A stretch of DNA of 64,000 nucleotides from assembly GCF_032854445.1 (NCBI RefSeq), contig NC_088303.1, positions 16,437,501 to 16,501,500 of the forward strand, given 5' to 3'. Made by a program: the position numbers and the translations under genes. Of this stretch, positions 2,861 to 45,790 are shown in pieces. Position 1 is the first letter of the stretch. Every line of letters begins with the position of its first letter. The notes under the pieces are model-generated. The model was not told where the DNA came from. It saw only the letters and a list, made by a program, of their open reading frames with translations, and made no database searches. This stretch comes from Liolophura sinensis (taxonomy: Eukaryota; Mollusca; Polyplacophora; Chitonida; Chitonidae).

Positions 2861-3108
2861 GTATGTAGAGTACCGCTGTTCACACTAAAAAATTCCCTAT
2901 AGCATAGGCCTCAATCAATGTCATGACAATAACTCAAGTTAAAAAAAGCACATTTTTAGGGTCTTGAAAACTCACCAAATGCTATGGTATAGGCTCGAGG
3001 AATGTGATAGCTTTTCATGAACAGACGTGATTGCCATGAACCCTTTCGGTTCTGCGAATCTCACAACAAGTCAACTACGAGCACCAAATGCTGTTTCTCT
3101 CCGTTTCA

Positions 3109-3465
3109 AGTACGAAAATAGGACAGAATTATGTAAGGAGAAGCAGTATAAAGTTTTCAGTGATGTTGGAAAGAAGCAAGGTATGTTCTAAGGGGTTGAG
3201 TGAAAACAGTATTCAAATCGTGTACCATGCTAGAATATAGCTTGTCGATAACAAAATATGCATTCCAGTTGCACTTTGATTGCAACTGTTCATGTATCCA
3301 ACGTGGCGATCTAATTCAACACGATGAATATATCGTCCCCTTGCCACGGGTTAAGCAGAATTAGACACAATCATGATGCAGAGCGCAAGAGATTCTGCAC
3401 GTTCTGTCCATATTTACTTACAAGACAATTATACTCATTGTTAAACACCAGAAACTTGGAGTGAA
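3109..3465. repeat. Dispersed repeat, copy 1 of 3 (about 350 bp)
   Basis: The segment aligns by eye with 16321-16677 and more loosely with 16977-17230. Shared landmarks are 'tacgaaaatagga', 'aaggtatgttcta', 'ttcaaatcgtgtaccatgct', 'cgataacaaaatatg', 'gtggcgatctaattcaacac' and a terminal 'tttggagtgaa'. No open frame survives across copies. It could be a non-autonomous transposon or the outer edge of an older duplication of the array at 10-24 kb. Confidence 0.6.
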
Positions 3466-5028: not shown

Positions 5029-5221
5029 GATGAACACTGGGCCAGAACACCTTTGTTACGTAGTAGTTGTCTTGTAAGAAACTGCCAAGATACAGCTGTG
5101 TTCAGTGTCTAGTATACTATGAATCGCTGTTGTATATTCTTATCCAAAGTTTTACCTGTCCATCTTCTATCTTGTATAACGTAACACCTCTGTAAATATC
5201 ACAGAATGACTGTTGTAACTA

Positions 5222-5461
5222 TCTCGCTTGGCGTTCAGCATTAAAGGGGATAGTGCAACGACTAGTTGACCGGTATCAGTATAATGGCTCGGGTGGAGCG
5301 GCTTACTTGCGTTCGGTAAGTCGTCTGAGTAAAACAGCACTAGATAAAAGAAAACCCGTCCTGCAACAAGCAGGCATATGCACTCAAAGGATTCCATCGT
5401 CGTCATATGACTGAAAAATTGTTAAGTACGACGTTAAACCCCAAACACTCACTCACTCACT
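5222..5461 (+). mobile_element. 5'-truncated CACT-tail SINE
   Basis: It begins at 'tctcgcttggcgttcagca', an internal point of the full element at 26926-27265, and continues to 'gacgttaaaccccaaacactcactcactcactc'. The tRNA-like head is absent. It lies in intron 3 of gene copy 1, on the opposite strand to the gene. Confidence 0.8.
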
Positions 5462-6506
5462 CTCTATTATAACGATATGCGTCGTTAATAGTTATGTCCA
5501 GGCAAAGTTAGCGAATCATTGTGACTAGAATGCAATCATGTTTGATCATATACAGTACTGAGAGTGATGCCCTTTTAGAAACCATTGAAACATTACATAA
5601 ATCGAAAAGACAATAAGTGATGAATATATTAATTTATCACTTCGGTAATATTGCAGTAGAACGCAAGTCAACAAAGACTCAATAATACATTTATTACATT
5701 AATACATTTGCTAAAGTTCATATTACCAGTCTTTTAAAGTGAAAAAACATAGTATATCAATTGCATAAAATAACACATTACACGTTTGGACAATTTGTAT
5801 TATTTATGCAGAACAAATACATTTAATGTACTTGTATTATGTACTATGGCCGACATATTCGAACAAATGTCAAATTATAGTTGCAAGTTTTGTTGGAATC
5901 ATGAATTTCGGTCAAACGCACGGACTTACATCTTGTCCGTTTTCTATCTTGAATAAACAGATACCTCTGTTGATAAAACAACAATTACATCAGCCTCATC
6001 ATTGGTTCGAGAGAAAACAAAAACATATGTTAAACACAGCAAAGGGTTTTCTAACATCGTTCCCGTGTCTATCAATATCACCTCATAGCTTTCATTTCCA
6101 GATGAGCATTACGCTATACAGTAGCTATAGATGGAATGCAAACTTACTTGTACGTTTTCTGGTTACCATTCTTTGACCGCCCAACGACGACATCCCGTGA
6201 CACGGCTATATCCTCGTTACTGTACACTAGCTCCACATTTCCCTTTTAAGTGGAATGGCTCTCAATTCCTACTGGATAAAACTTGCGACGTTCTGTAAAA
6301 GACAAATGACATGAAATCGATATCCTCGCAAGAATGTGAAAATGAAAATTACCATTAATGTCAATCTTCCAAGAAGAGAGACTTCCTTTTGAGATAAGTA
6401 AAATTTACTTTTAATCTTCCGCATGGGTCGCGAGTTGGTTGGAAACTTATTGCCTAACCCATCATTTTGAAAAACAAAAATGGAATACCACCAATCCAAA
6501 ACTGTC

Positions 6507-6586
6507 AAAAAAAAACAAAAAAACAAAAAAAAAAACAACAAAAAAACAAAAAACAAAAAACAAACAAAACAACAACAACAAATAAA
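6507..6586. repeat. A-rich (CAAAAA)n-like simple sequence
   Basis: About 80 bases of A runs interrupted by single C residues, ending in CAA repeats. The minus-strand open frame over it (6269-6592) is a low-complexity phenylalanine/leucine artefact. It lies inside intron 2 of gene copy 1. Confidence 0.9.
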
Positions 6587-7054
6587 TAACACTACTATAC
6601 GCTTCCGGTATCCAGTACCGCGTGATAACTTTGGTCTGGCATTTTCAACACATTAGCATTGGCTTGGTTTTGTGTTACTTAAACGTACATGTACAGACCA
6701 TACAGCGTAAAATCGGGGCGAATATCACTGTGCATGGTTTGTTTCTGGTCAGCATAATCCTTTCCTAGTGTGCTTATACAAGATCGATATTCTAGCTCTA
6801 CTCTTCGACTCGAGGATTCGATCAGCTGCTCAACTATATAAATACCTGTTTTGACAGGCAAACAGTGATTACTTTACCACCGTCAGGATAAAATGCATAT
6901 GAAGCATGCAAATAATGACGTATACAAGTGTATTTTATTTTGGGATCTGTGTTCATAAAAATCCAAATAAAAATGTTATTTAAAAGTAAAACAATTCAGG
7001 AATGTATATCTACAGTAATAATCTGAAATTTGTTATGTTTGTCATGGTTACACT

Positions 7055-7213
7055 TTATTTATTTATTTATTTATTTGATTGGTGTTTTACGCCGTACTTA
7101 AGAATATTTCATTGATACCACGGCGGCCAGCATTTTGGTGGGAAGAAACGGGGGAAAGCCCGGGGGAAACCCACGACCATCCGCAGGTTGGGGCCAGACC
7201 CTCCCACTTACAG
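7055..7213 (-). mobile_element. SINE (AAATAAAT-tail family), 5'-truncated
   Basis: On the plus strand it reads '(ttta)n ttgattggtgttttacgccgtac...aagaatatttc...acggcggccagcatt...gggggaaacccacgaccatccgcaggtt', the reverse complement of the 3' half of the full SINE at 9098-9387. It is inserted in intron 2 of gene copy 1. Confidence 0.85.
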
Positions 7214-8916
7214 TCATGCTTATATGGTATTGCAATATTGTTGTTCTTATGGAAACACACACGTGATTGTGATATTCAGATGTTGAGTTAAGATTATGGC
7301 CACTACATTACCATAGTTTTATGGATTATTACACTGATATTATATGGCATACAATGCATTTGAATTTAAGGATTGTAAGTTAATCATTTGATGATTTTTC
7401 TTAGAAACCTATACTATTTTCCGGCGTATAGTGGAACGTGGCGGGTTTCGGCGTAAAGCCTGTTTACCTTCGTAATTCACCACAGGCTTATCTGGTGCAA
7501 AATGGATAGCGTCTTTTGAATACAGATTCCAGAACTCGTCTTCATCTCCACTATTGGGGGCGAGAGTCCAGTTTGCGGCGGTTTCTTCCACGGCATTTTT
7601 CCACTCTAAAATAGTAAAATTTTTACAAACGTAAATATACCCAGATTAACATTCTTGAAAACTTTGACTAGTGTCTGGAATACATCTGTTTATTAGTTAA
7701 AATCGTGTAATTAATTACCAACCAAACAATTCGCAGCATATACAGCAAGCAGAACCCGATTTTCACGCTTCATGTATGATGTTGCGTAGATTTACATTTC
7801 ATTCTTTTATCTTCTTAAAAAAATGCTTCCTCGCCGGTTTTTAAATTGGGTGTTGTTTTGCCAATACTATTTTGCAAATCATTGCAGTGTGTAAGAAGAC
7901 TACAGTTTCCCATAAGCAGAAGGTTACACACAAGAATCGACGATATACAAAAGAAGGCTGGAGACTTCGTGTCCTCTCCCGGGGTTGGGAGACGTTTGAA
8001 AACATGGCGTATAACTTCGCCTACAACTCAGATATCCCACAAATTTCCGATGGAACACATGCTTTTACAAAGGCCACAACACAGAGATGCTGCTCTGACA
8101 ACTGCCTAAAATCCCTGTTAACGTACAAGTAAATTTGTAGCTGTAACTGTAAAGACTTTACGCGAACCAATATTTCATTCCGGTCTTTATAGGCCTTCGC
8201 TATACTCGGTCTCCTTCAAATAGCACATTTGAGAAAGAATGCATAATACATACATTCGTGTATAGCTTTTTTGTAATATTGCATTTCCAACCTTTCGCAA
8301 TGCAGTTGCATATAAAATGCAAATCATTCTTACCTTTTTCATTCCAGCTAACGACACCAAGGTAAGCAGAATTCCTGTCCACATTTTCAGCTCCTTTTGA
8401 CAAGACAATCAGATAGAAACTGTAACGAAATTGTTTCGGAGGGATACAATGCATAGTGTCTGATTGGCTGGTATGAGAAAAGAGATCAGGTTATACATGT
8501 GGGTTAAGCTGAATTTAAGGAGGAGTATACGCCTTTTTAACCGTTAAAAATACAGTTACTTTGTAGAGCAGGGAATACGCTGCGACCGTTTTACTATACC
8601 GTTTAACAGTAGTCTGTAGAGAAGGAACGAAGCTTATATATATACTCACTGCTATGCAGAGTACTATGCTGCAGGCTTTAACCCGGGAAATATTGTCCGC
8701 GTGGATTCTTTAAGTATCAGATATACTGTGTTCAGATCATTACCATACAACATTAATTCATCAGGTGTAAATACCGATATAATTTTTTGTAGTTAGTTTA
8801 CCCTGGGTTTTTAGAATGGAAATACTTTACAGCGTATCACACAAATGACATGACTGTCCTAGAAATCACAGAGTAGGCCTAGCTGGTTTGAGGCTCTGGG
8901 CAAAATCTTCGTCTTA

Positions 8917-9094
8917 CCCAATGCGTAATGCGCACATTATTGATAATGAAGACAACAATGCGTAATACGTACATTATTGGTAATGCAGACACCAATGGGT
9001 AATGTGTACATTATTGATACTGAAGACAACAATGCGTAATGTATGCATTATTGATACTGAAGACAACAATGGGTAATGTGTACATTATTGATAC

Positions 9095-9137
<43 letters not shown>

Positions 9138-9407
9138 ATTGGTGTTTTACGCCGTACTCAAGAATATTTCACTTATACGACGGCGGCCAGCATTATGGTG
9201 GGTGGAAACCGGGCAGAGCCCGGGGGAAACCCACGACCATCCGCAGGTTGCTGGCAAACCTTCCCACGTACGGCCGGAGTGGAAGGCAGCATGAGCTGGT
9301 CTTGAACTCACAGCGACCGCATTGGTGAGAGGCTTCTGGGTCATTACGCTGCGCTAGCGCGCTAACCGACTGAGCCACGGAGGCCCCTATTGATACTGAA
9401 GACAACA
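8917..9407. repeat. 37-bp minisatellite interrupted by a SINE
   Basis: Units of 37 bp of the form 'aatgcgtaatgtgtacattattgatactgaagacaac' (variants) repeat about four to five times from roughly 8917 to 9097. The last partial unit resumes at 9388-9407 after the SINE. The monomer itself alternates ATTATTGATA-type segments. Confidence 0.85.
9098..9387 (-). mobile_element. Full-length tRNA-derived SINE with poly(A) tail and TSD
   Basis: On the minus strand the element runs from GGGGCCTCCGTGGCTCAGTC (tRNA-like head with A box) through the B-box-like region 'gagttcaaga' and the conserved body to '...cggcgtaaaacaccaatc' and about 40 A residues. A 12-bp target-site duplication, TATTGATACTGA, is at 9086-9097 and 9388-9399. 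The same word also recurs in the host minisatellite, so the duplication is supported but not unique. This is probably a MetaSINE-like mollusc family; that label is inference. Confidence 0.9.
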
Positions 9408-9628
9408 AACCAGCGACAGGTAGATGTGTGTGCCATTGGCTTCAGTTGGGTTCAAATTAATGTAAATATATATGTTTTATTAGATTCCATGTTTTCAAAG
9501 TTGAGCATGAATCCAAGTCAAAATATACTGTTGTTGTAAACATCCACTTGTCGGCAAAGTCACCGTTACAATCTGGAACCGTCCTCTATCTGATTTGAAA
9601 TGCGTCGCAAAGGAAGCTGGCCAGAACG

Positions 9629-9932
9629 CCTCAGACCCATATATTCTTTTCCAGTGATCGACAATGTTAACGTTGTGGTCTGTAACTTAGTCACAAGCAT
9701 TACATGATCGGTAAGCATTGGCGCCTACCTTGCCCAACCGCTGAGACAGCAACCATTAAAATATCGACCAACGTTGACCGTCAAAACCTGAAACCTTCAT
9801 GTGCCAGTAGGTTGGGGGGAGGGGGTATTCAGGGATGTCAAGGGCACTCAACTGTCTGACTCCATGTGTAATACTTTCAAACTTTATAACTGCACAAAGT
9901 TCGGACAGTTTCCATTATTTTTATAATGGCAT
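9629..9932 (+). mobile_element. Decayed copy of the 452-bp inverted-repeat element
   Basis: It aligns loosely with 39878-40329 and 42780-43231. Shared words in order are 'cgacaatgttaacg', 'tgaccgtcaaaa', a G-rich 'gttgggggga' corresponding to 'gctgggagggg', 'actttcaaactt' corresponding to 'aatttcaaactttcacc', and 'gacagtttccatta'. Ends are eroded, and the inverted terminal repeats are not clear. Confidence 0.6.
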
Positions 9933-11119
9933 CACATTTAGTACATTTTTTTCCGTATCATACAACCTAGCCGATTATACGGAAACTGCCTCGGAAGTGG
10001 AACAGCCTGAGTAGACATGACGTCACAACGCAATTCCATAATTTCGACATGCTGAAGCTCTGTCAACATTAATTTTATTAAACTTTCATTCGCTGGGGAA
10101 AAAATCCAAAATCTATCCAATACCAGTATGAGAAACTTCAAATTGTAGTCTTTCGTGGGAGATAAACATTAACCAGGTGATGTGTTGTCTTTTATGTTTT
10201 TTTTTTCATATGTAGACCTATCTTGTGATGAGCGATTGTTTACTCCAGCCTCTCTGCTTTCCTCCACGCATGAATATGGCCCTATCATAATAATCAAATC
10301 AACATATAAATAATTAATATACCATTACTTGAAAAAAGGTAGAGTTGTTAGGTGAGGGCCCTGTGCAAATATAAATAATAAATTAGAGATGAAATTTCAA
10401 ACAATGTAGACCGTGTCATGCAACACACCGACCGGTATGTTTACCTCCCCGAATTTTTTTCGTTTCATGCGGATTTATTTCTACAGATAAAAGAATTTGA
10501 GATGGTTTACTTGTTAGATTTGTTATATGATTTATATAAAGATAAACCAGTGTTATTAGTGCGTTTGTTCTTATATTTTGATACTTCACAACCACACGCC
10601 CCCAGGAAGTGAAAAAAGAAACATTTGTTTCAAGACGTTCCAATCTGAGCTTAGCAGTATGACGTCATAACACTACAGACGTGCAACTTTTTTATTGTTG
10701 TGACACCCAGCAATAAAACGTGGTGTTTATACACAGATAAGTTTATTTCTCAATTATTTTCTCTTGCACTCAGTTTGCAATTATTTTGACGTTTACAGAT
10801 TGGATTTAACATTGACAGCCCAACGCACTGTGTATAATTTGTTAACCAGATAAAGTCAGCAATGTAATAACACTAATGTAAATTCCTACATTTATTTGTT
10901 TGTTTTTATTGTGGTATAAGTTACGTTTTGCTTCCAGCATGTGGCAAATGGAGAATATATCTACATATCCGTAATCCCTGGGGGGTTTGTATACAAAGAT
11001 GGAATCTTTTCCAAATTATTTTGAATAACAGGCTACTAATCAGTTATGAAGTTTATGGTTATTGTGAAGTTTAGATAGCATTTTAGATACAATATTACTG
11101 TAAATTGTTTTATCTTCAG

Positions 11120-11389
11120 GGGGCCTCTGTGGCTCAGTTGGTTAGCGCGCTAGCGCAGCGCAATGACCCAGGAGTCTCTCACCAATGCGGTCGCTGTGAG
11201 TTCAAGTCCAGCTCATGCTGGCTTCCTCTCCGGCCGTACGTGGGAAGGTCTGCCAGCAACCTGCGGATGGTCCTGGGTTTCCCCCGGTCTCTGCCCGGTT
11301 TCCACCCACCATAATACTGGCCGAGGTCGTATAAGTGAAGTATTCTTGAGTACGGCGTAAAACACCAATCAAATAAATAAATAAATAAA
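11120..11389 (+). mobile_element. Full-length SINE with exact TSD, inserted after the segmental duplication
   Basis: Complete element: head 'gggcctctgtggctcagttggttagcgcgc', B-box-like 'gagttcaagtcc', body, and an (AAAT)n tail. A perfect 12-bp target-site duplication TTTTATCTTCAG flanks it at 11108-11119 and 11390-11401. The matching site in unit B (about 18510-18520) is empty. Confidence 0.93.
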
Positions 11390-11484
11390 TTTTATCTTCA
11401 GCAGTTTTGATCGATAGCCTCTCCGAATTTTATGTTTCTTTCACGTCAAGTTCAAGTTCATTTATTCACTCTTTCCACACTCGG

Positions 11485-11610
11485 TGGCACCAGAGACATA
11501 CAGGTTGGCACTAGAGGCACACAGGGTGGCACCAGAAGCACACAGGGTGGCACCAGAGACATACAGGGTGGCACCAGAGGTACACAGGGTGGCACCAGAG
11601 GCATACAGTG
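11485..11610. repeat. 21-bp minisatellite, about 6 monomers
   Basis: Monomer 'ggcaccagaggcacacagggt' and variants. It is the short counterpart of the large array at 18581-19650, and the flank 'cacgtcaagttca.gttcatttattcactct' is shared. Because 21 is a multiple of three, both strands show open frames; these are not genes. Confidence 0.95.
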
Positions 11611-11649
11611 GTTTACATGGATGGCGTAATGAATTCTCAATCTATAGGC

Positions 11650-13840
11650 CTACATATGATCATCTAAACAATACTAATTCTTAATATACAGGCTTCAGGA
11701 TCACGAAGCTATCTTTGACTTAAGTCAGAATTTCATTTATTATACTTGATTGTTCCTTTCAGATATTTCAGCTAAAATTTGTTGTGCAAAAACATAAACA
11801 GAATTTTTTTTAAGTTGTCAAGCATTATTTTGACCTTGTTACATTATAAATAAGAATTTAAAAATGGGCTGAAATTTTGACTTAAGTCTAAGATCGTTTC
11901 GTGATTCCGGGGCCAGGATTTCCGAACACCTATTATTCTCTGTATATTGCTGTTGCTTCTAACATAAACCTACACACATTATGTAAGATATATTTGCTCT
12001 TAGATTTAGACAGCTTTTGAAAGGCAAAAACACTATTTATTTTCACTTTACTTTAAATTATATGCTTTAAATTATTAAACTTGGGGTAAACGAGTAAAAT
12101 ATGTAGTTCACCCCCAGGCTGCTAGTATTACAGTTCTTCCACAATCGTTCCTGTTTGGTTTGGTTACGCCATCTGCCAGTCCTTATAGGTAAGCGGTGAT
12201 TGCTTGTTCTAAATTTTGCTAATAGCTTATATACTTTCCGGCTTAAAGCTGACAAATAAAATTCTAATTCAGTTTTAACCTTAAAAACTTAGATGAGGAT
12301 GACAGTTCGGTCTGTCAGTTTCGGATAAACTGGTATTTAAAACGTTGTTTAAATAAAGCTAAAACTGTGGAATATTTCGTACAAATTGGTTATTCCGAAC
12401 ATACTCGAAGCCAGTCATACAAAGTATGTTCTTGCACAAACATTCCTCGTAGATAACATAAATTTATACATAATATGTGACAGTTTACTTTGACTGGAAT
12501 TGTTAAATAGTTTAAACCAGTATGAAACAGTACGTTTATAGATATGAGTATACATTGGGAACACACCCATTTCACCATAGACAGCACAGTTTTGAGTAGT
12601 TCCAAGTGCATTCTTTAGATATTTAAGAGAAAATATTTCACACAGTTTTAAGCACTCGAAGCCCCGAATTTCACATTCGAATAAACATACTAGGCTAACC
12701 ATTTAATCAAGGAGTTATATTGTACAAGCTAATGGCAGTAACAGCGCGGAACACTTGCGGCTCATTGCAAACAATGCTTTTGAGGACTGGTTAATTAACT
12801 GCTTTTCAGCTTATAAAAACGAGCAATATTTCGGTAGCAATCGACTATTTCAATTTCATGACCTTTAAATAATAAATGCAGGACATACGTTCTATGATTT
12901 CGTTTTTACGTTGAATAGTGAGTGAAATAACACCCACATTGTTGGCCTCTAAAAACTCTTCAACATCGTTCAAAAACAACGAAAACAAGAGAGGCATGTA
13001 TTTTCCTTTGTTCTTGCATATCTTAGGAGGGCATATATTGTCGAATGGGTTTGATTTTTATCTTATATGCATACTATAAAGGACGTTATTTTATCATTAC
13101 AGGCCTAGAAAAGCAAAGGATGGGCAAGGGGCAATGTCCCCGTCTGTATTACTTAGTGGTTATTTCGCCGTTTTGCATTGTGAATGGGCTAAGTGGTCAG
13201 CGCTTGACATAGAGCAAGGTTGTTTACATGGGAGGTCCTGTCTTTTGGACTGTTGGAGTGTATTTAGATCGAGCTATCTTTCTGGATGCTGACTTTCAAT
13301 GCTGATGATTTTTCTGTATAGTAAATTGGTCATCCTTTCGAGAGTCTATTACGTATTGTTGTAAATATTATTTCTCTCCATCGAAACTAGGGGATTCTAG
13401 TGTAGGGCTCAGGCGTATCTCGCAAGGGTTAGTTCGCATTCTATAGTCGTCAGATGAAAACAATCAGCTTTCACATCACAGGAAAGTACATTTTAAAAGG
13501 TAGGAATTTTGTTCTTTGCAAGTAACTAGGCATTGGCACCATGTGACGCTGAAATTTCGAAAGCTCTATTTTTACTGTGCAAACAAACATCGAGTGAGCG
13601 TTTCATCACGTTGGATCGCTTAGATTGCGGACTAGATGACCGCTATCAGCCCCCATAGAAAACAGTCCTTGACAGAGTTTGTTTTGATATTTTAGAGAAT
13701 CTAAATTTTCTTTAATGTGTTCAGAGTGGTAAATTTTCTGTTATGGCGTTAATCATTGTACCTGATAAATTATTGAAAAGCAACAATAGTTTTAACCACC
13801 ACCACCTCCCTAAATTCGTAACAATCTTACGAACCAAACG
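11650..13840. other. Unit A-specific stretch, no gene seen
   Basis: AT-rich sequence with no counterpart in unit B and no recognisable exon, RNA gene or transposon. It may be an insertion in unit A or a deletion from unit B. Confidence 0.4.
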
Positions 13841-13844
13841 TAAA

Positions 13845-13945
13845 ACGTAATCCGAGTAGATGACTCGAGGATCGGCTTGATCCCGGTCTCGCGATTTCGA
13901 GATTGACGCTTTAACCATTACGCAACCGAAGCGATCCAGCTAAAA
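13845..13945 (-). mobile_element. tRNA-like SINE head, isolated
   Basis: The minus strand has an A-box-like 'cgtaatggttaaagcgtc', an arm 'ctcgaaatcgcgagacc' and a B-box-like 'gggatcaagcc'. It resembles the head at 37349-37425. The acceptor stem does not pair well, so I call it a SINE head or tRNA relic rather than a functional tRNA gene. Confidence 0.5.
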
Positions 13946-14119
13946 TTACTGAAAATGCCATGTTGGCATCACATTTGGAACATTTTAAGTGAAAACAATG
14001 CCAAGGGGCCAGGCCTAGGGGACTTGTAGCCCATCAGCAGAACTGTGGATTGCGCAGGAATACAATATAACACTAGAGTATGAAACCAGAGGAGCTACGA
14101 AAGTAGGAGAGATGGTTTA

Positions 14120-14194
14120 TTCATTTATTTGATTTATTTCATTGGTGTTTTACACCGTACTCAAGAATATTTCACTTATACGACGGCGGCCAGC
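14120..14194 (-). mobile_element. Short 5'-truncated SINE with TSD
   Basis: Only the last ~60 bases of the SINE plus tail are present, in reverse orientation ('attggtgttttacaccgtactcaagaat...cggcggccagc'). It is flanked by AGATGG(T/C)TTA at 14110-14119 and 14195-14204. The paralogous position in unit B (about 20672-20682) has a single AGATGGCTTA and no insert. Confidence 0.88.
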
Positions 14195-14323
14195 AGATGG
14201 CTTAGGTTCACATGTATAACTAGTGAAATCCAGCCTCCTCTAGCCTATCTCATTCAGTTACAGTGTCAGTACAATTGATTCTTGCATACTATCAAACCGT
14301 GGTTGAAATTTGAGCAGTTAGAT

Positions 14324-14329
14324 TTTATT
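14324..14329 (-). terminator. Poly(A) signal of gene copy 2
   Basis: AATAAA on the minus strand, about 42 nt beyond the stop codon. The same hexamer and flank are kept in copy 3 at 20803-20808. Confidence 0.55.
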
Positions 14330-14370
14330 CTCACATATATTCACGGATATACACTGAATACTTTTGTTTA

Positions 14371-15766
14371 TCAGCCTTTGTTTAAGATTCCCATCCATTC
14401 TTTCACCTGTCCATCTTCTATCTTGTAAAAGCGAACGCCTCTGTAAATAACAATGTTGAAAAAAAAACATTGTCATGAATATTAAGACGCGAAAAAGCTT
14501 TTTGTTTGGCCTTACATATATATACTTAATACTGAAATAAATACATAGCATTTAGTTCTAGGAAAAAAACCCATTTTAAATCGATAGTTTAATACATTTG
14601 CTGCATGCATTCAGCTAGAGGTTTTGACATTCTCATTTCTTTTATGTAAGTAGAATAGCGCAAAAACAAACTTACTTCAAATGCACCTGAACACCCTCCT
14701 TTGTCCGCGATACGCCTAAGTGTCTGGCGACTGCCATCTCCTCGTCACTGTACACCAGCTCCACAAAGCCCGTGTATAACCAAAACGGGAGATAGCCCCT
14801 TTTCGTCATATATTGTTGGAATTCTTTAAAAATAAGAAAATTTGTTGAGGCTTTCCATTTTTCATTACTACAGACAGCGCAATGGGTGTAAAATTGTCAG
14901 CTCACATTTCATGGCTGTCAAGGGAAAATGTAAGAAGTTAAAAACGCAAGATACACGCTTAATTAAGATAGATTAACGTTTTCTGCTTCAAAATCGTCCA
15001 GCTGTCAATAACATTGCATAATTTAACCCAAAGCTGAAAGGTCCAAACTCTAAATTCTGTGTGATTGCACTGCGCCGTATCAGTGACGTTATCAGCGGTG
15101 GCTTCCTGCAATGGAATATCCCATCCCTATTTTAATAATCTATACGTGTACAACCAAGGTATTGGTCTCTATGGCGTATTCGCTAAAGGTTGCTGATGGT
15201 TTTAAGGTTGCCTGTTCACATCCTTTTCTCTTGTTCACATTCTTTCATTCAACCGCAGGTTTACAGTAAAATGCATGTGTGCCTAATACCTGGTGAAAAT
15301 TTCTCGAACTATCAAATCGACAAAACAAAAAAAAAAAAAAAATAAACATTGATTGCATATTTTCCGACATGAATTATCACGTTTGGAATTCTTTTGTAAA
15401 CGCCTGTTTAAAACCAATTTGGTATTACCTTGATGATTCATGGCAGGCCTTTCATCTCCCAAATGGATAGCGTCTTCAGTATACAAACTCCAAAATCCGT
15501 CATGCTCTGGAGTGTTGACTGCAATGGTCCACTTTGCGTAGAATTCTATCACGGCAGTTCTCCATTTTAAAAATTCAAGCTTGTATCATTTAAATTGTTA
15601 ACCTGACTTTCACAATCGAGATTTAAACGAATATTATAAACTCACTTAACGTTTACTAGTATAACATTTTAAACGTTGTACACAAAAGGAAATCATTCTC
15701 ACCCTTTTCATTCAGAGCAAATGTTCCAGCTGACACGACCAAGGTAACCAGAAGTCCTGTCCACAT
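14371..15766 (-). CDS. Secreted NTF2-like (SnoaL/DUF4440-like) protein, copy 2; exon 2 acceptor mutated
   Basis: Four exons on the minus strand: 15703-15766 (64 nt), 15429-15566 (138), 14676-14823 (148) and 14371-14440 (70, stop TGA at 14371-14373), together 140 codons. Phases 1, 1 and 2 join without a stop. Residues 1-17 (MWTGLLVTLVVSAGTFA) form a signal peptide, so the product would be secreted. The domain follows: W and a helix with FYAKW, then FWSLYTEDAIH, the strand FVELVYSDEEMAVAR, and a final VRFYKIEDGQVKEW strand. That is the layout of NTF2-like/SnoaL proteins of about 120 residues, which bind small ligands in a cone-shaped pocket; the ligand is unknown. The donors are GTGAGA, GTAATA and GTAAGT. 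The predicted exon 2 acceptor reads TTTTAA instead of TTTTAG (15567-15568), so normal splicing may fail. Skipping exon 2 (46 codons) would keep the frame. It could be functional, alternatively spliced or a young pseudogene. Confidence 0.6.
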
Positions 15767-16249
15767 CTTGGGCTCTTTCTGATTAGAAAGTAATGCCGAG
15801 ACTGTAGCGAGAAGGTGTTAAGCACACTATCATAAACTATTTCATCAAGTGTAAATTCCGACATCCAAACATTCGTCAGCTAACAGGACAAGCAGATTTT
15901 TTTAGTTGGTAATCACTCGTAGACACGTGGTGATTAATTTCACGATTGCACATTCATCATTGTGTGCTGGATCGACATGTTGTGTACAAGCTACGGTCGC
16001 ATATCGTGCAAAGTTGATTAAATATTTCGAATATCAAGGTACAATATTATCTGGTGTTAAAGCCATGAAACCTAGTTCATTATATGTTACAAGGTACACA
16101 TTCAACAAGGCGAAATCGTGGTCTTTTGACAGAAAATCTGTAGATTTCCCCGTTAGCAATAATCGTAAATACTTGGTGACAACAATCGGACGACAACAAT
16201 CGTGTCTATGCGTCGAAACAGACCAGCCGTCAACCAATAAGGGTGCTCC

Positions 16250-16680
16250 GTGTCAATAATTGCAAGGCCAATTCCCAAAACGACGTTTAACACATTACCG
16301 AAGAACTAAGAAAGTATATAAAGTACGAAAATAGGACGGAATCATACAAAGAGAAGCGGTCAACAGTTTCAAATAATGTTTGAAAGTCGCAAGGTATGTT
16401 CTAGGCAACTGAGTAAAATCATTATTCAAATCGTGTACCACGCTAGAGTATCAGTTATCGATAACAAAATATGTATATCAGTTGCGCTTTGATTGGAACT
16501 GTTCATATATCCAAGGTGGCGATCTAATTCAACACGATGAATACAGAGTCCATAACCCCGAGTTAAGCGTAATTAGACACAGCCATTAAGCAGGGCGCCA
16601 GAGATTCTGAACGCCCTGTCCACATTTACTTATAAGAGAATTGCAGTCCTTGTAAAACTTAAGAAATTTGGAGTGAAGGC
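16250..16680. repeat. Dispersed repeat, copy 2 of 3
   Basis: It matches 3109-3465 from 'tacgaaaataggac' to 'tttggagtgaa' and matches the next copy at 16900-17230 in tandem, about 650 bp apart. The upstream part, 'acgacgtttaacacattaccgaagaacta', is also shared with 16935-16965. Confidence 0.65.
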
Positions 16681-16899
16681 GTTTGATGCAATAGCCTTGT
16701 TGTTTTGGAAATGGATCTTGCGATTATCGACTTGGAACGCCCTTTACGGACTACGAATGGTATAGGAATGTCGGACTTGACGCTTATATTGTCACACGTT
16801 TGGGTATGTAGTCTTGCATTTGTCACAATCATACCGTAAACTGCACTAATCTAATCGACACACATACACGCATTGACATTCGTATTCCAGCCATCAACC

Positions 16900-17230
16900 A
16901 AATTCGATGGCCAAATCGCAAGGACAATTCCACAGCGACGTTTCACACAAACCACCAAAGAACTTAGAAAGTATATGAAGTACAAAATTCGGACCGAATC
17001 ATGCATAGAGAAACAGTTAACAGTTTTCATTGATATTGGAAAGGTGTTGTTCTAGGCAAATGAGTGAAATCAGTATTCAAATCGAGTACCATGCTGGTAA
17101 ATAAATTGTCGATAATAAAAGATACATCTCAGATGCGTTTTGATTGTAACTGTTCATATATTCCACGTGGCGGTCTAATTCAGAACGATGAATATACACC
17201 CCCTACCACCGGGTTGAGCACTGTGAAACC
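16900..17230. repeat. Dispersed repeat, copy 3 of 3, in tandem with copy 2
   Basis: Shared words with copy 2 are 'gcgacgtttcacacaaaccaccaaagaactta', 'gaaagtatatgaagtac', 'attcaaatcgagtaccatgct', 'gtggcggtctaattcagaacgatgaat' and 'gggttgagca'. It is more diverged than copies 1 and 2 are from each other. Confidence 0.6.
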
Positions 17231-17840
17231 ATTTGCATAGATGCGAACACTGTGCAATTATATTAACAGATATGTGCCTTAAACATGCGGAATAACATTT
17301 ACTAACTGTACAATTTAAAAAACACACTCATACAAACACACAACTACGTGTCGGCCATCTACCGTACCTACAGACGAGAATCATTCACACCTCTGATTCA
17401 GCTTTATCCATACACCGTCATTTATACAGAACGGAGAAAATTACTTTTCAATGACAATTGACATAAACATTTAGCTGTTTTTCAACACTGTGTTTTTTTT
17501 ATTAAAAGACAACCACTTTTGTTTCAGACAGTTCTAAAATTATTGATCTAACTATTCTGACTATCATGAAATGTCTAATTCATGCCTCCAAGTACCATAT
17601 CTCAAGTACAATCTCCTTATATATCTACATAAGATATTTCATTATAGAGGTTATTAGAACTTATTCATTTATATATCATTTGAAGAGAAAAAAGATATAC
17701 GGTAATTATTCATCATTTTTATGTTATCCTTTTTTTACCTTTTATGTTTTTCTTTCATGTATAGGCCTACCTTGTTATGAGCGATTGTTTAATCCAGCCT
17801 CTCTGCTTTCCCCCGGCCATGAGCATGACCGACATCACTA

Positions 17841-17884
17841 TAAAAAAATTACCATATAAATAAATAAACAAATAAATAAACAAA

Positions 17885-17943
<59 letters not shown>
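17841..17943. repeat. (AAAT)n microsatellite
   Basis: About 100 bases of AAAT units with occasional AAAC variants. The equivalent place in unit A (about 10305-10320) has only 'aacatataaataattaata', so the run expanded in unit B after duplication or was seeded by a lost SINE tail. Confidence 0.95.
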
Positions 17944-17944
<1 letters not shown>

Positions 17945-18580
17945 ATACCATTCTCTCCAGCTGTGAGCTTAGGGTCGTCTGCAAGTATGCATAATAAATA
18001 ACAGATGAAATTTCAAACAATATCGAGTGTGTCATGCAACACACTGGCATTTCAGTCTGAGTTTATGGCGACATAATACGTGTACAGTAAACTTTTACAT
18101 TCCTATGACACCCAGCAACAAGAGACGACGTGTGTACACAGATAAGTCTTTTTCTTAATTAGTTTGTCTAACGTTTATTTTGCAGTGATTTTGACGTTTA
18201 TAGATTGGATTTAAGATTGACAGCGTATAATCTATTTTCCAATAATTTGATAAAGTCAGCAATGTAATAACGCCGATGTCAATTCCTAGGTTTACTTGTT
18301 TGTTTTTATTGTTGGTTTAAGCTACGTTTTGTCTCCAACATGTGGCAGATGGAGAATATATCTACATATCGGCACTCACTGTGGCCTGTATACAAAGATG
18401 TAATCTTTTCCAAATTATTTTGATTAGCTGGCTACTAATCTATTATGAACTTTAGGGTTATAACGAAGTTTGGATGGCATTTTAGATACAATTTTAGTGC
18501 ACATTGCTACATCTTCATTAGTTTTGACCACGTTTTTTTCACGTCAAGTTCATGTTTATTTATTCACTCTATTCCACACA

Positions 18581-19650
18581 AGGTGATACCAGAGGCATGC
18601 AGGGTGGCACCAGAGGCATACAGGCTGGCACAAGAGACACACTGGGTGGCACCAGAGACACTCAGGGTGGCACCAGAGGCATACAGGCTGGCACCAGAGA
18701 CACACTGGGTGGCACCAGAGACACTCAGGGTGGCACCAGAGGCACACAGGCTGGCACCAGAGACAGACAAGGTCGCACCAGAGACACACAGAATGGCACC
18801 AGAGGCATACAGGGTGGTACCTAAGGCATACAGGGTGGCAGCAGAGGCATACAGGCAGGCACCAGAGGCATACAGGCTGGCACCAGAGACACACTGGGTG
18901 GCACCAGAGACACTCAGGGTGGCAGCAGAGGTACACAGGCTGGCACTAGAGACAGACAAGGTCGCACCAGAGACACACAGAGTGGCACCAGAGACACACT
19001 GGGTGGCACCAGAGACACTCAGGGTGGCACCAGAGGCACACAGGCTGGCACCAGAGACAGACAAGGTCGCACCAGAGACACACAGAATGGCACCAGAGGC
19101 ATACAGGGTGGTACCTAAGGCATACAGGGTGGCAGCAGAGGCATACAGGCAGGCACCAGAGGCATACAGGCTGGCACCAGAGACACTCAGGGTGGCAGCA
19201 GAGGTACACAGGCTGGCACTAGAGACAGACAAGGTCGCACCAGAGACACACAGAGTGGCACCAGAGGCATACAGGGTGGTACCTAAGGCATACAGGGTGG
19301 CAGCAGAGGCATACAGGCAGGCACCAGAGGCATACAGGCTGGCACCAGAGACACACTGGGTGGCACCAGAGACACTCAGGGTGGCAGCAGAGGCACACAG
19401 GCTGGCACTAGAGACAGACAAGGTCGCACCAGAGACACACAGAGTGGCACCAGAGGCATACAGGGTGGTACCTAAGGCATACAGGGTGGCAGCAGAGGCA
19501 TACAGGCAGGCACCAAAGACACACAAGGTCGCACATACAGAGACATACAGGGTGGCACCAGAAGCACATAGGATGGCACCAGAGTCACACAACGTGGCAC
19601 CAGAGACATACAGGGTGGTACGAGAGGCACACAGAGTGGCACAAAGGTCA
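18581..19650. repeat. 21-bp minisatellite, about 51 monomers, with higher-order structure
   Basis: Monomer 'ggcaccagagacacacagggt' with variants such as ggcagcagaggcatacaggca. A marker variant 'ggtacctaaggc' recurs at 18821, 19115, 19283 and 19472, spaced by 294, 168 and 189 bp, exactly 14, 8 and 9 monomers. Blocks around the markers are nearly identical, showing multi-monomer amplification. The apparent 411-codon frame on the plus strand (18445-19680) and the 363-codon frame on the minus strand come from the 7-codon period and are not supported as genes. Confidence 0.97.
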
Positions 19651-19756
19651 CACAAGTTTGAAACTGCACTTGGAATATAACAGAATGTAGAAAGTTGAGA
19701 AGGAGTTTTATTATTTTTTTACCTATATATATGACAGCACAATAACTCCGGAGCCT

Positions 19757-19872
19757 TTGCTGGCTTCCTCGCCGTTCATACGGAGGATGGTCTCCCGGAA
19801 ACCTGCGGATGGTCGTGGGTTCCCCAGGCCTCAGCATGTTTTAATCCCACCATAATTCTGGCCACTTTCTAC
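19757..19872 (+). mobile_element. SINE fragment
   Basis: Middle and 3' body only: 'tgctggcttcctc.ccgt', 'aacctgcggatggtcgtgggtt', 'ccaccataattctggcc'. Head and tail are missing, and about 10 bases ('ggaggatggtctccc') are rearranged. Confidence 0.8.
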
Positions 19873-20081
19873 ATCGCACAGCTTGATGAATACTGGATTT
19901 AATCTTCTCTATGACTATATCCATTTGCGAAACGTCAAGGCAGCTAGGAATCACCTTGGTATAGTTTATTGGTTTAAAGCATGGAATTACACTCCCTTAC
20001 AACACCAACATCAACATCCCATAGCACCGAGTCTGGTATTCCTAAACACGAAAATGACACGTAAATTTAGCACTTTTTGCA

Positions 20082-20145
20082 CGAATGATTATGACTGAAT
20101 ACCACATCGACAATATTTCAGTCATATCGTGGCGCGAGTGAAACA
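20082..20145 (-). mobile_element. Third SINE-type tail (GCGTTAAACCATAATCATT family), relic
   Basis: The plus strand reads 'aatgattatgactgaataccacatcgacaatatttcagtcatatcgtggcg', the reverse of the conserved 3' tail seen intact at 58745-58801. Only the tail is recognisable. Confidence 0.6.
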
Positions 20146-20802
20146 CTGTTTCACATGTGAAGAAGTTTTGTCAATTAGTTGTGAAAAGTCCGGGGTGTGC
20201 TCCAGGCATTCCAGTTTCCACAACCATTCAAAATGGCCGCTCAAAATTCAAAATCATTAAATATAAATAACATGAAAAAGTGAGAAAACATGAGTAAATC
20301 CAGTGAATGCACGACAGTGTATTAGCTGGCAAATGAATATGCGTGAAAGGTGAAATCCGGCCTCTTGTCAGTTTATCTCAGTTTATTTATTCCAACTGGT
20401 CATGTAAATGCTTACATAATAGCAACTCAGACATCCTTAGCACTAAAGCTTAAGCAGAGTTCCATAGATATTAATTGCAATTTATTAGATGTCATTGATC
20501 TAGAATTACTCAAAATACCATGTTGGCATTACATTTAGTAAATTGTCAAATGAAAACAATGCCAAAAGACCAGACCTAGGGTACTTGTAGTCCACCAGCA
20601 AATTCCTGGGTTATATAGGAATACAATATGAGATGAGAGCATGAGACCAAAGCAGCGACGAAAGTGGGAGAGATGGCTTATGTTCACATGTATATGTAAT
20701 GAAATTCGGCTGCATGCTAATTCCACATTCATTCAATTACAGTGTCAATACCATTGATTTATGCATGTTATCAAACCGTGGTTGAAGTTTGAGCCATTAG
20801 AT

Positions 20803-20808
20803 TTTATT
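20803..20808 (-). terminator. Poly(A) signal of gene copy 3
   Basis: AATAAA on the minus strand, at the position equivalent to that of copy 2 (14324-14329). Confidence 0.5.
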
Positions 20809-20850
20809 CTCATATACATTCAACGATATACACTGAATACTTTCTGTTCA

Positions 20851-22169
20851 TCAGCCTGTGTTGTAGATTCCCATAAATTCTTTCACCTGTCCATCTTCTA
20901 TCTTGTAAAAGCGAACACCTCTGTAAATATCACACAATGACCAGTTAGTATGAATCTTTCCTCCACCCATTAACCTTACCACGCCCAGAAATATTTAGGT
21001 GAATTGCCTTCACCTTAAATATATGGCCTTAAACACATATATTTAATACTGAAATAAATAAACAGTATTTATAGAAATAAAATAAATAAAAAGCATTCCG
21101 TAGTCACAAATCGATAGTTTAATGTATTTATTACATGCATTCACCAAGATATTTTGAAATTCTAATTTCTTTTATGTAAGTAGAATGCTAGTAGCTCAAA
21201 ATCAAACTTACTTCCAGTTCAACTATTTATTTATTGCAGGCAGTGCGGTGAGTGCAAAATTGTCAACTCACATTTCATGGCTGTCAAGGGAAACAGTGTC
21301 AGAAGTTAAAAACGCAAGACACACGCTTCATTAAGATAGTTATTAGTTGTTTAAATCAATGCTAATTAATTATAATTTTTCAGGACTCTTGAAAAGACAT
21401 GCAACGTCTTCTCCTTTAAAATCGTCCAGCTGTCAAAAACATTGCATATTTAGCCTAAGGGTCCAAACTCTAAATTCTGTGTGATTGCACTGTGTCGTAT
21501 ATCCATAACATTGTTAGCGGTGGCTTCCTCTAATATAATATCCCGCCCTTTTAATAATTTTAATAATCTATACGTGTAATAGCCCAGAAAGTCAGATACT
21601 GGCATCTATGGCGTTTATATTCGCTAAAGATTGCTGATGGTCTTTAAGGTTACCCGTTCAAATCAGCATTCTTTTATTCAACCGCGGGTTAATATCAGAA
21701 TGCATGCTTGCCTGGTGCCTGGTAAAATTTGTCGAACAATCAAATCGACAGAATAAAAAGTAAACCTTGATACGAAAATTATCACGTGTGGAATTCTTGT
21801 GTAAACCCTTGCTTAAAACCAGCTGGATATTACCTTGATGAGACATGGTAGGCATTTCGTCTTCGAAATGGATAGCGTCTTCAGTATACAAACTCTAGTG
21901 ACCGACATGTCCTGGAGTGTTGGCTGCAGTGGTCCACTTTGCGTACGATTTGGTCACGGCAGTTCTCCAATCTAAAAAAGTTTATACATTTAAATTGTTA
22001 ACCTGACTTAAGACATTTTCACGAGCAAGCCTTAAACGAATATAATGAACTCACGTAACATTTACTAATATGACATTTTCATACACAAAAGGAAATCATT
22101 CTCACCCTTTCCATTCAGACCATATGCTCCAGCTGACACGACCAAGGTAACCACAATTCCCATCCAAAT
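20851..22169 (-). pseudogene. Secreted NTF2-like protein, copy 3, pseudogene
   Basis: Exon 1 22106-22169, exon 2 21834-21971 and exon 4 20851-20920 are clear; exon 3 is absent. Three lesions are seen. First, the start codon corresponding to copy 2 is ATT (22167-22169), although an in-frame ATG lies two codons on at 22161-22163. Second, the Trp of the conserved FWSLY motif is TAG at 21895-21897. Third, the sequence jumps at about 21213 from the exon 3 donor flank ('aaacttacttc') to intron 2 sequence ('gcaggcagtgcggtg'), removing exon 3. Its exon 2 acceptor is a normal TTTTTTAG. Exon 4 keeps its acceptor, GVRFYKIEDGQVKEF and the stop TGA. The pattern fits a copy that was once functional and later decayed. 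Confidence 0.85.
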
Positions 22170-28029: not shown

Positions 28030-29700
28030 CATGCACTGCATCTTTTCGTTTTAATATATTTTCTGAAGAAAAACTAACTGAATTAGATGACGTAACATAT
28101 AGGCATGAAACTGCAAGTCATCAAAACAAACCTACGAGATGGAATGCAGAAAATTCGGATTCATATAATGAAAATATAGATGTACTTAATAGTGCGAACA
28201 ATTTTACAGAAGTGAATATTAATAGCGTTTCAAATGTGTTTTCAGAAGTTCTTGTTTCGGCAGCCTATGAAACTTTTGGTGTTTAAACTTCACACACTGC
28301 GTTTCCAGTATCAGACAAATGGCTTTTTAGACAGGAAAAAAAGAGAAGAGGAAATTAGATACATAATTAAAAATTTAATGACAAAATGACAAGTCATATG
28401 GAATCGATTTAGTTCTTAATGAATATATCAAAAATATCATTGGTACACTTATGCCTCTACATTTGAAATTGCTCTATGTAATATTGGATACTGGTTAATC
28501 CCCGAGAATTGGACAGCATCCCATTTACAAGCACAAAGGAGATATACAGAACCGTGAAAATTACCGACCCATATCGCTCTTAAGCTGTGTGGGTAAAGTC
28601 TTTTCTGGGATATTAAATAATAGAATTGGCGAATTTGTAGATAGTAATGATATTTTAACAGAGGCACAGCAGGATTTCATAAGGGTTACTCTGTGATAGA
28701 CCATGTTTTTAATTTAAACTGTTTGATAAACCTCTTTAAACAAAACAAGAAAAAATTATATTGTGCCTTGATTGAGTTGAGTAAGGCTTTCGACACTATG
28801 GGCAAAACTTTTGGAAACAGGAGTATATGGTAAAATTGTAGGTGTCATTAAGAATATGTACAAACATACCAAATCAGGTGTAGCAATGCATAATTCTCAC
28901 TCAGATGTGTTTGTTTGCATTGTTGGCGCACGCCAAGGAGAAATTTATCTCCAATATTCTTTTCTCTGGATACAAACGACCTAGGGAATTATTTTCGCAT
29001 CAAAGATGGCTTATTGATTCAGGTGGACTCTGATCCTCTTTCTTTATATATGAAATTGTTTATACTTATGCATGCGGATGACACCGCCCTACTGTCGGAA
29101 TCCTATGCTGGAATAAATACCATGCTAGAAGTTTATAGAGAATATTGTAAAATTTGGAGTTTTACTGTAAATATTTCGAAAAACTAAAGTAGGCCTATTC
29201 ATTATTCGTCGTAAGTGCCGCAGAAATTGTATCCCTTGGGGACAGAGTACTCTAGACATTGTCACAGATTTTAAATACTGAGGGGTGATTTTCAGTAAAG
29301 TGGGCGGTTTATAAAAATGATAAAGAATAATATAAACGAGCAAATGAAGCCTTTCATTGCATGATGAAAAAGGTTACAGGTCAAAATTTACCAATAGACT
29401 GTACTCTGCAGGTTTTTGATCAAAATATTTTACAAGTATTACTCTAAGGAAATGAGGTCTGGGGTTTTGAAACAGTGAAATGCTTGACAAAATTCCATAA
29501 AATTAATAGTAAAAAGATATATAAATCATTGTGTACTTTCTGTTCAGTTACTGGTGTCAATATATGTATATACTAAGACACCTAACCTATACATGTTTTT
29601 CATTTGGTGTCTTCGGCGTGTTGTTTCTATGAGGCAGCACAGAAAATATTCAGACGGGCCTGTTTTAATAAGACACCATCATAATAACGTTGAAACCAAT
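28030..29700 (+). mobile_element. Dead non-LTR retrotransposon (LINE) reverse-transcriptase region
   Basis: Broken frames in order give a linker-like, Asn-rich stretch (to about 28286); RT segments KGDIQNRENYRPISLLS, ILTEAQQDF and LSKAFDTM (about 28530-28800); then the catalytic box region HADDTALLSES followed by VNISKN (28915-29187); and a post-RT part around 29200-29600 with LYGNEVWGFETVKC-like and KFHKINSKKIYKSL-like words. The catalytic motif reads HADD where YADD or FADD is usual. Several frameshifts and stops mean it is inactive. No 3' tail or target-site duplication was found. Confidence 0.85.
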
Positions 29701-44138: not shown

Positions 44139-44411
44139 AGGGGGCCTCCGTGGCTAAGTAGGTTAGTGTGTTGGCGCAGCGTAATGACCCAGGAACCTCT
44201 CATCAATGTGGTCACTGTGAGTTCAAGTCCAGTGCTGGCTCCCTCTCTGTCCGTAAGTGAGAAGGTCTGCCAGCATCTTGAGGATGGTTGTGGGTTTCCC
44301 CCATGCTCTGCCTGACTTCCCCCACCATAATGCTGGCCACTGTCGTATAAGTGAAATATCCTTGAGTATGGTATGAAACACTAATTAAATAAATAAATAA
44401 ATAAATAAATA
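44139..44411 (+). mobile_element. Full-length SINE
   Basis: Head 'gggggcctccgtggctaagtaggttagtgtgt', 'gagttcaagtcc', body and an (AAAT)n tail of about 28 bases. TG/CA replacements at CpG sites indicate age by methylation-type decay. Confidence 0.93.
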
Positions 44412-45529
44412 ACATAAAGATTAAGGACTGACATAAATATAATTAAAGCCTGCTTGGTTTTTAGGTCAGCCCAGTTTTCCAGTCTATTAAGCGTTTATAG
44501 GCTATCTGCGTACATTGAGTGGGCAAGATTCATCTGCTTTTTATTGAAGCAAAAAGATGACAGAGTATCGTAATATGTGTCAAAATAATCAACCATTAAA
44601 ATACCATATAAATTCTGTAACAACACATTCTACAAAGAGAGGGATTCTTTGTATTAGTTGAACACCAATCCACTCCATGACCTTTGTGTTGCCAGTGCAT
44701 GCTTCTACGGTTCTACCACTAGCATGACTATAGACTGAAGGGAAATTTTCCTGAGCCCAGAAGTATGTAGCGCTTATATCACTCTTTTTTCATGCACTTG
44801 TAAAGAATTGCATACATGTAGTGCTGATTACAATTTTTGAGAGTCAGTTAGTTTTGTCAGTTGGCTGAATACATAAATTTGGAGACCATGATACAAGTGA
44901 AACGTTTTTAGTGTGCCATTAAACATATGTGAAATAAATAAATAAATTATTGTTAGATACTACAGGAATATGAGTAATACCTTTTTATTAGCTGGTAATC
45001 TGGCTAACTAGCTGTCAGAAAACACTTGGCTACATGTATGTGGCACAAATGCTGTGTTTGATTGGTTAAAACCTCATCATGTTTCAGGTGATGAACTGAA
45101 AACTCGGACCATACATGTCTGTATCACATGAGTTCAGAGGTAAGTGTTCGGTGCCGCATTTGTTTGTAGTGTAAGCTCTGATTAACTGTTTTCTGGCTGA
45201 GGGTGCATTGTCAGGTTTGTGGGTGGGGGAAACTGAGCCAAGTGCAAATGAAACCTCCACCCCTGGTAATGTACGTGTACTTAACAATCCCTCTGATCCA
45301 AGGCCACAACAGGCCTAGGGAAAGTTGCCTTTGGACACACAGCCGCATTGTTTAAGGGCTATAAAATATGTACAAGGTATGTCATAGCCCCATAGGATCA
45401 CTGCTCTTAGCTGCATTGAGTACATGTACAGTGAAGATATCATCGCAAGAGCAGTTATTATTCTCTTCATCTGCCATAGAAATCTAATCTGATTCCTTTT
45501 ATAAATTCTTAAATCATATAATGATTTAA

Positions 45530-45776
45530 GGGGCCTCCATGGCTGAATTGGTTAGCGCACTAGCGCAGCATAATGACCCAGGAGCCTCTCATCAATGCGG
45601 TCGCTGTGAGTTCAAGTCCAGCTCATGCTGGCTTCCTCTCCGGCCGTATGTGTGAAAGTCTTCCAGCAACCTGCGGATGGCAGTGGGTTTTCCCCCGGGC
45701 TCTGCCCAGTTTCCACCCACCATAATGCTGGCCACCGTTGTATAAGTAAAATATTCTTGAGTAAAACACCAATTTA
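45530..45776 (+). mobile_element. Full-length SINE with 14-bp TSD
   Basis: ATATAATGATTTAA is repeated exactly at 45516-45529 and 45777-45790. The head is intact ('gggcctccatggctgaattggttagcgc'). The 3' end is shortened ('gagtaaaacaccaatttaa', missing 'tacggcg'). Confidence 0.93.
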
Positions 45777-45790
45777 ATATAATGATTTAA

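Follow-up and report, generated by a model that had tools for sequence, protein, structure and literature searches.

Between positions 5117 and 22169, the minus strand of the window (by which we mean the whole 64 kb stretch of DNA analyzed here) holds three copies of one four-exon gene. We consider it probable that they form a small birth-and-death array of a secreted NTF2-like gene, one built by an old duplication and a later tandem duplication of about 7.5 kb, with decay staggered among the copies (Table 1). The three four-exon copies had been proposed from the letters of the DNA, and they are real: when the copy 2 protein was run against the window with tblastn, it gave matches beyond chance to copy 1 exon 2 (E 1.2e-12), copy 3 exon 2 (E 9.8e-18) and copy 3 exon 4 (E 2.0e-9), and a tblastn search with the proteins of copies 1 and 2 detected no further convincing copy in the 64 kb. 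The peptide YKIEDGQVK, described earlier as a shared end, lies close to the exon 4 end in copies 2 and 3, and in copy 1 it falls within exon 4b. Shared exon lengths had been claimed as well, and this is true of copies 2 and 3, which are identical (64/138/-/70 nt), but not of copy 1 (51/138/145/73 nt). Introns are retained in all three copies, which rules out processed pseudogenes. The copies are homologous neighbors in the same orientation, with introns and disabling changes, as tandem duplicate pseudogenes are; in copy 2 the putatively disabling change is at a splice site, which makes that copy a candidate pseudogene.

Table 1. Exons of the three gene copies and the two units of the tandem duplication, in positions of the window.
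Feature	Start	End	Strand	Remarks
Copy 1 exon 1	8334	8384	-	51 nt, 13 nt shorter
Copy 1 exon 2	7468	7605	-	138 nt from first AG, 136 from second; acceptor AGAG
Copy 1 exon 3	6148	6292	-	145 nt; in-frame TAA
Copy 1 exon-4-like piece 4a	5912	5966	-	partly diverged
Copy 1 exon 4b	5117	5189	-	73 nt including stop
Copy 2 exon 1	15703	15766	-	64 nt, leader, ATG present
Copy 2 exon 2	15429	15566	-	138 nt; AA at acceptor
Copy 2 exon 3	14676	14823	-	148 nt
Copy 2 exon 4	14371	14440	-	70 nt including stop
Copy 3 exon 1	22106	22169	-	64 nt; ATT at start, in-frame ATG two codons on
Copy 3 exon 2	21834	21971	-	138 nt; TAG at FWSLY Trp
Copy 3 exon 4	20851	20920	-	70 nt; very little of exon 3 left between exons 2 and 4
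Left unit of tandem duplication	10189	17723		contains copy 2; colinear blocks
Right unit of tandem duplication	17739	24196		contains copy 3; colinear blocks

The sequence-only reading described a dying array with independent lesions. The damage does differ from copy to copy and no listed lesion is common to two copies, which supports independence, but for two of those listed a disabling effect is not clear. In copy 1, the 13-nt deletion leaves a shorter exon 1 and shifts the frame at the usual exon 2 border, but it is not clearly null, as the second AG of the acceptor, 2 nt downstream, restores an open frame up to the TAA. Because the second AG can offset the deletion, the TAA in exon 3, which is in frame as had been reported, is the one clear null change in this copy, a premature stop. 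In copy 3, the initial ATG has indeed been replaced, but given the in-frame ATG just downstream the loss is milder than was claimed. The TAG at the FWSLY Trp and the loss of exon 3 in the same copy were both confirmed, the latter with only 16 of 148 positions alignable. Copy 2 also agrees with its earlier description as an intact frame with a mutated acceptor: joined at the borders common to its sister copies it gives an open frame of 139 codons (139 aa), and its exon 2 acceptor is AA at the position where copies 1 and 3 have AG. That acceptor is the one candidate null change in copy 2.

We noted one feature of copy 1 that was absent from the sequence-only reading, the exon-4-like piece 4a, which lies about 720 bp before exon 4b and is followed by a donor-like GTAAGT. 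Over 42 nt, exon 4b is identical to copies 2 and 3 at 34 and 35 positions, respectively, and piece 4a at 26 and 27. We considered a fourth copy as a possible source of exon 4b, and the 42-nt comparison is too short to decide this.

Copies 2 and 3 arose by head-to-tail duplication of a segment of about 7.5 kb, a finding that goes beyond the earlier reading. In local alignments the left and right units are colinear, and the end of the left unit is 16 nt from the start of the right unit, so we interpret the two copies as a head-to-tail segmental duplication. The left-unit blocks that have a right-unit partner are 10189-10428, 10658-11118, 11434-11606, 13940-14120, 14195-14688, 14860-16205, and 17354-17723, the last of which has the poorest partner match (64% over 371 columns). 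The local alignments gave 11609-13939 no partner in the right unit, so large insertions or deletions also set the two units apart. The three copies are real, but the history of the array is one of an older copy plus a segmental tandem duplication, in which copy 1, outside the duplicated units, is the older one. Over the 138 sites of exon 2, copies 2 and 3 are identical at 115, copies 1 and 2 at 94, and copies 1 and 3 at 85. A 21-nt minisatellite is also present in both units, with about 6 copies at 11476-11608 in the left unit versus about 51 at 18575-19654 in the right unit, and the latter array contains open frames of 411 codons on the plus strand and 363 codons on the minus strand.

Copies 2 and 3 differ at 38 of 272 exon sites (14.0%; exon 3, missing in copy 3, is excluded), 116 of 861 intron sites (13.5%) and 95 of 581 sites in the flanks (16.4%); for exons compared with introns, Fisher's p is 0.84. 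Nei-Gojobori estimates are dN 0.160 and dS 0.136, for a dN/dS of 1.18 (88 codons, 2 stop codons skipped), and the chance of this many nonsynonymous changes is 0.025 at a dN/dS of 0.5 and 0.15 at 0.7. With copy 1 as the outgroup, 7 changes are placed on copy 2 and 19 on copy 3, with 9 unresolved (253 columns, p 0.029), from which we conclude that copy 3 was probably the first to decay; exon 4 by itself shows no acceleration of copy 3 (3 to 2 changes). Given its slower change, copy 2 may have died very recently or may even be expressed today.

The three shared exons of copies 2 and 3 have no indels in 272 nt, whereas the noncoding rate (32, 43, or 51 indel events in 1591 nt, depending on which of three gap settings is used) predicts 5.5 to 8.7. 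The chance of seeing none is 0.004 to 0.0002, or 0.065 to 0.013 if one lineage alone decayed freely, where these probabilities assume equal slippage and exons may be less slippage-prone. The lack of exon indels argues against free decay of both copies since the duplication, and the uneven split of changes likewise speaks against equal decay. Between copies 1 and 2, dN/dS is 0.52 at a dS of 0.71 (98 codons, omitting exon 1 and the beginning of exon 3, which aligns poorly), which suggests some constraint in the older history.

Exons, lesions, duplication, and rates were all computed here, and the history that they point to would run as follows. An older duplication would have given rise to copy 1 and to a common ancestor of the other two copies. 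Later, a unit of about 7.5 kb (10189-17723) would have been duplicated head to tail, which would have separated copies 2 and 3. Since no listed lesion is shared, parsimony suggests that this ancestor was probably intact at each of the features that are now broken. Copy 3 would then have drifted at an approximately neutral rate, with loss of its first ATG, the Trp codon, and exon 3, while copy 2 would have changed more slowly and had its exon 2 acceptor altered by what is its candidate null change, and copy 1 would have gained its premature stop. When intact, the protein would presumably have taken the secretory route, folded as an NTF2-like cone, and served as a non-catalytic binder of a small molecule.

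It is unlikely that copy 2 still works, either through another acceptor inside exon 2 or by skipping exon 2, so that only copy 3 and perhaps copy 1 are dead. Beyond the first 20 bases of intron 1 we examined six AGs upstream of exon 2, and with each of them the frame soon runs into a stop. With the AG at +21 inside exon 2 the frame continues to its normal end (132 aa), and four more AGs inside the exon give shorter in-frame products, but by eye the AG at +21 has no evident pyrimidine tract, and its product is missing 7 residues from the region of the first predicted helix. If exon 2 is skipped, the frame stays open for 93 aa, but at a cost of about a third of the protein. The open 139-codon frame and the fewer changes on copy 2 than on copy 3 are what a working copy would be expected to have. 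A different possibility, decidedly unlikely in our view, is a rapidly diversifying invertebrate family of secreted NTF2-like binding proteins that was lost recently in this genome. The frames have stayed free of indels since the duplication while amino acids changed at the rate of neutral DNA, a pattern that diversifying selection on an extracellular recognition protein would be expected to leave. We set diversifying selection aside as the main reading because drift, too, gives a dN/dS of 1.18.

Two further explanations would place the fault in the assembly or in the individual sequenced. Copies 1 and 2 carry one clear candidate null change apiece, each a single base, and these could be sequence errors or rare alleles, with intact copies segregating in the species; in keeping with this, a mussel is reported to have large gene presence-absence variation (PMC7653742). 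We find this very unlikely, as the lesions of copy 3 are several and include a large deletion, and decay in the array must accordingly be real. Nor is it credible, beyond the slightest chance, that the two units are haplotypes of one locus that the assembler set in tandem. They are colinear and abutting, as such haplotypes would be, but noncoding divergence in the aligned blocks is 13.5 to 21%, which is a lot for alleles, and the units have large unpaired stretches and different lesions. Staggered decay after an old and a more recent duplication remains the reading that we prefer.

The encoded protein is probably NTF2-like (SnoaL-like). The Pfam family SnoaL_2 (PF12680) matched copy 1 with E 1.9e-5 (25.6 bits, profile positions 8-100 of 102) and copy 2 with E 6.8e-4 (20.6 bits, profile positions 7-102 of 102), near-full coverage of the profile in both cases, with both scores below the gathering cut-off of 27 bits. 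The copy 1 protein used in Pfam was joined at the second AG, with an X at the stop, and it also had weaker matches to DUF4440 (E 0.02) and SnoaL (E 0.074), while the copy 3 fragment had no Pfam match to SnoaL_2, DUF4440, or SnoaL. As to the SnoaL / ketosteroid isomerase enzymes, a weak match to TIGR02096 of NCBIfam (E 0.0071 for copy 1 and 0.12 for copy 2) was far below the 97.1-bit cut-off of that model. None of 10 reversed or shuffled controls matched the NTF2-like families in Pfam, and two of them gave unrelated weak rows at E 0.054 and 0.17. The NTF2-like character claimed earlier for the family is therefore upheld as a similarity, by the SnoaL_2 matches of copies 1 and 2 and the clean controls, but the scores fall short of the cut-off, and for this reason we describe the protein as probably NTF2-like and do not assign it to PF12680.

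Searching the PDB with a single sequence gave nothing significant (2 rows, best E 0.41), and a profile of the three copies gave 6 rows up to E 10, none of them significant (best E 0.023). Three of these rows are NTF2-like by title (3g8z, 3hx8, and 6uad), 3hk4 is one that we take to be NTF2-like, and the other two are of another kind, so four of the six rows favor NTF2-like similarity. All three copies begin with a hydrophobic stretch that by eye resembles a signal peptide, so an N-terminal secretion signal is plausible, and the intact protein may have been both secreted and ligand-binding. Using the three-copy alignment as the query together with two exon 2 peptide patterns, we found no relatives at E 1e-3 in viral contigs (37 pattern matches) or in a prokaryote genome collection (48 pattern matches); these scans hinge on the two exon 2 patterns, so distant relatives may be missed.

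Several repeats are found in and around the array. Many copies of a SINE-like dispersed repeat, about 270 bp long, lie in either orientation (9118-9387, 11120-11389, 44139-44406, 45529-45800, and others), and another repeat, about 310 to 360 bp long, occurs three times, consecutively at 16258-16568 and 16914-17219, upstream of copy 2, and again at 3108-3465. A 27-nt satellite of about 93 copies at 54317-56821 has many long open frames on both strands. The look of the repeats suggests that the host may be a mollusc. In a sample of 10 hand-picked open frames of the window, which has at least 198 frames of 62 or more residues with four satellite stretches masked, one had a Pfam match at E 0.05 or better. 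This was a reverse transcriptase fragment at 28915-29187 (RVT_1, E 0.0014, below the cut-off), probably a LINE remnant. We detected no tRNAs in the window with ARAGORN under bacterial settings and no Rfam families at gathering scores.

As it stands, the array looks like ordinary gene turnover by birth and death in a little-studied family. What is added to the sequence-only reading is a clearer history and the knowledge that this array, whose protein family is little known, is real. For studying how a family is lost, it provides a series of ordered steps, from an old duplication through a later segmental duplication to staggered lesions. If intact relatives exist, they would amount to a small family of SnoaL-like proteins secreted by animals; in a narrow search of the open-licence literature we found no description of such a family.

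Birth-and-death tandem arrays have tandem copies, with old and young duplications side by side and unequal decay, and the present array is like them, the sole difference being its little-known protein family. Compared with SnoaL_2 (PF12680), copies 1 and 2 match the profile nearly end to end, but the array differs in its sub-cut-off scores, its probable secretory leader, its four exons, and its being an animal gene. Other NTF2-like domains that bear comparison are DUF3828, DUF3887, and DUF4878, which are absent from the Pfam matches of the array proteins. These domains are described as extracellular and, unlike the array, as bacterial and also fused to other domains; what they would have in common with the array is a secretory leader, seen by eye in the array proteins, and a proposed role in non-catalytic ligand binding (PMC3924330).
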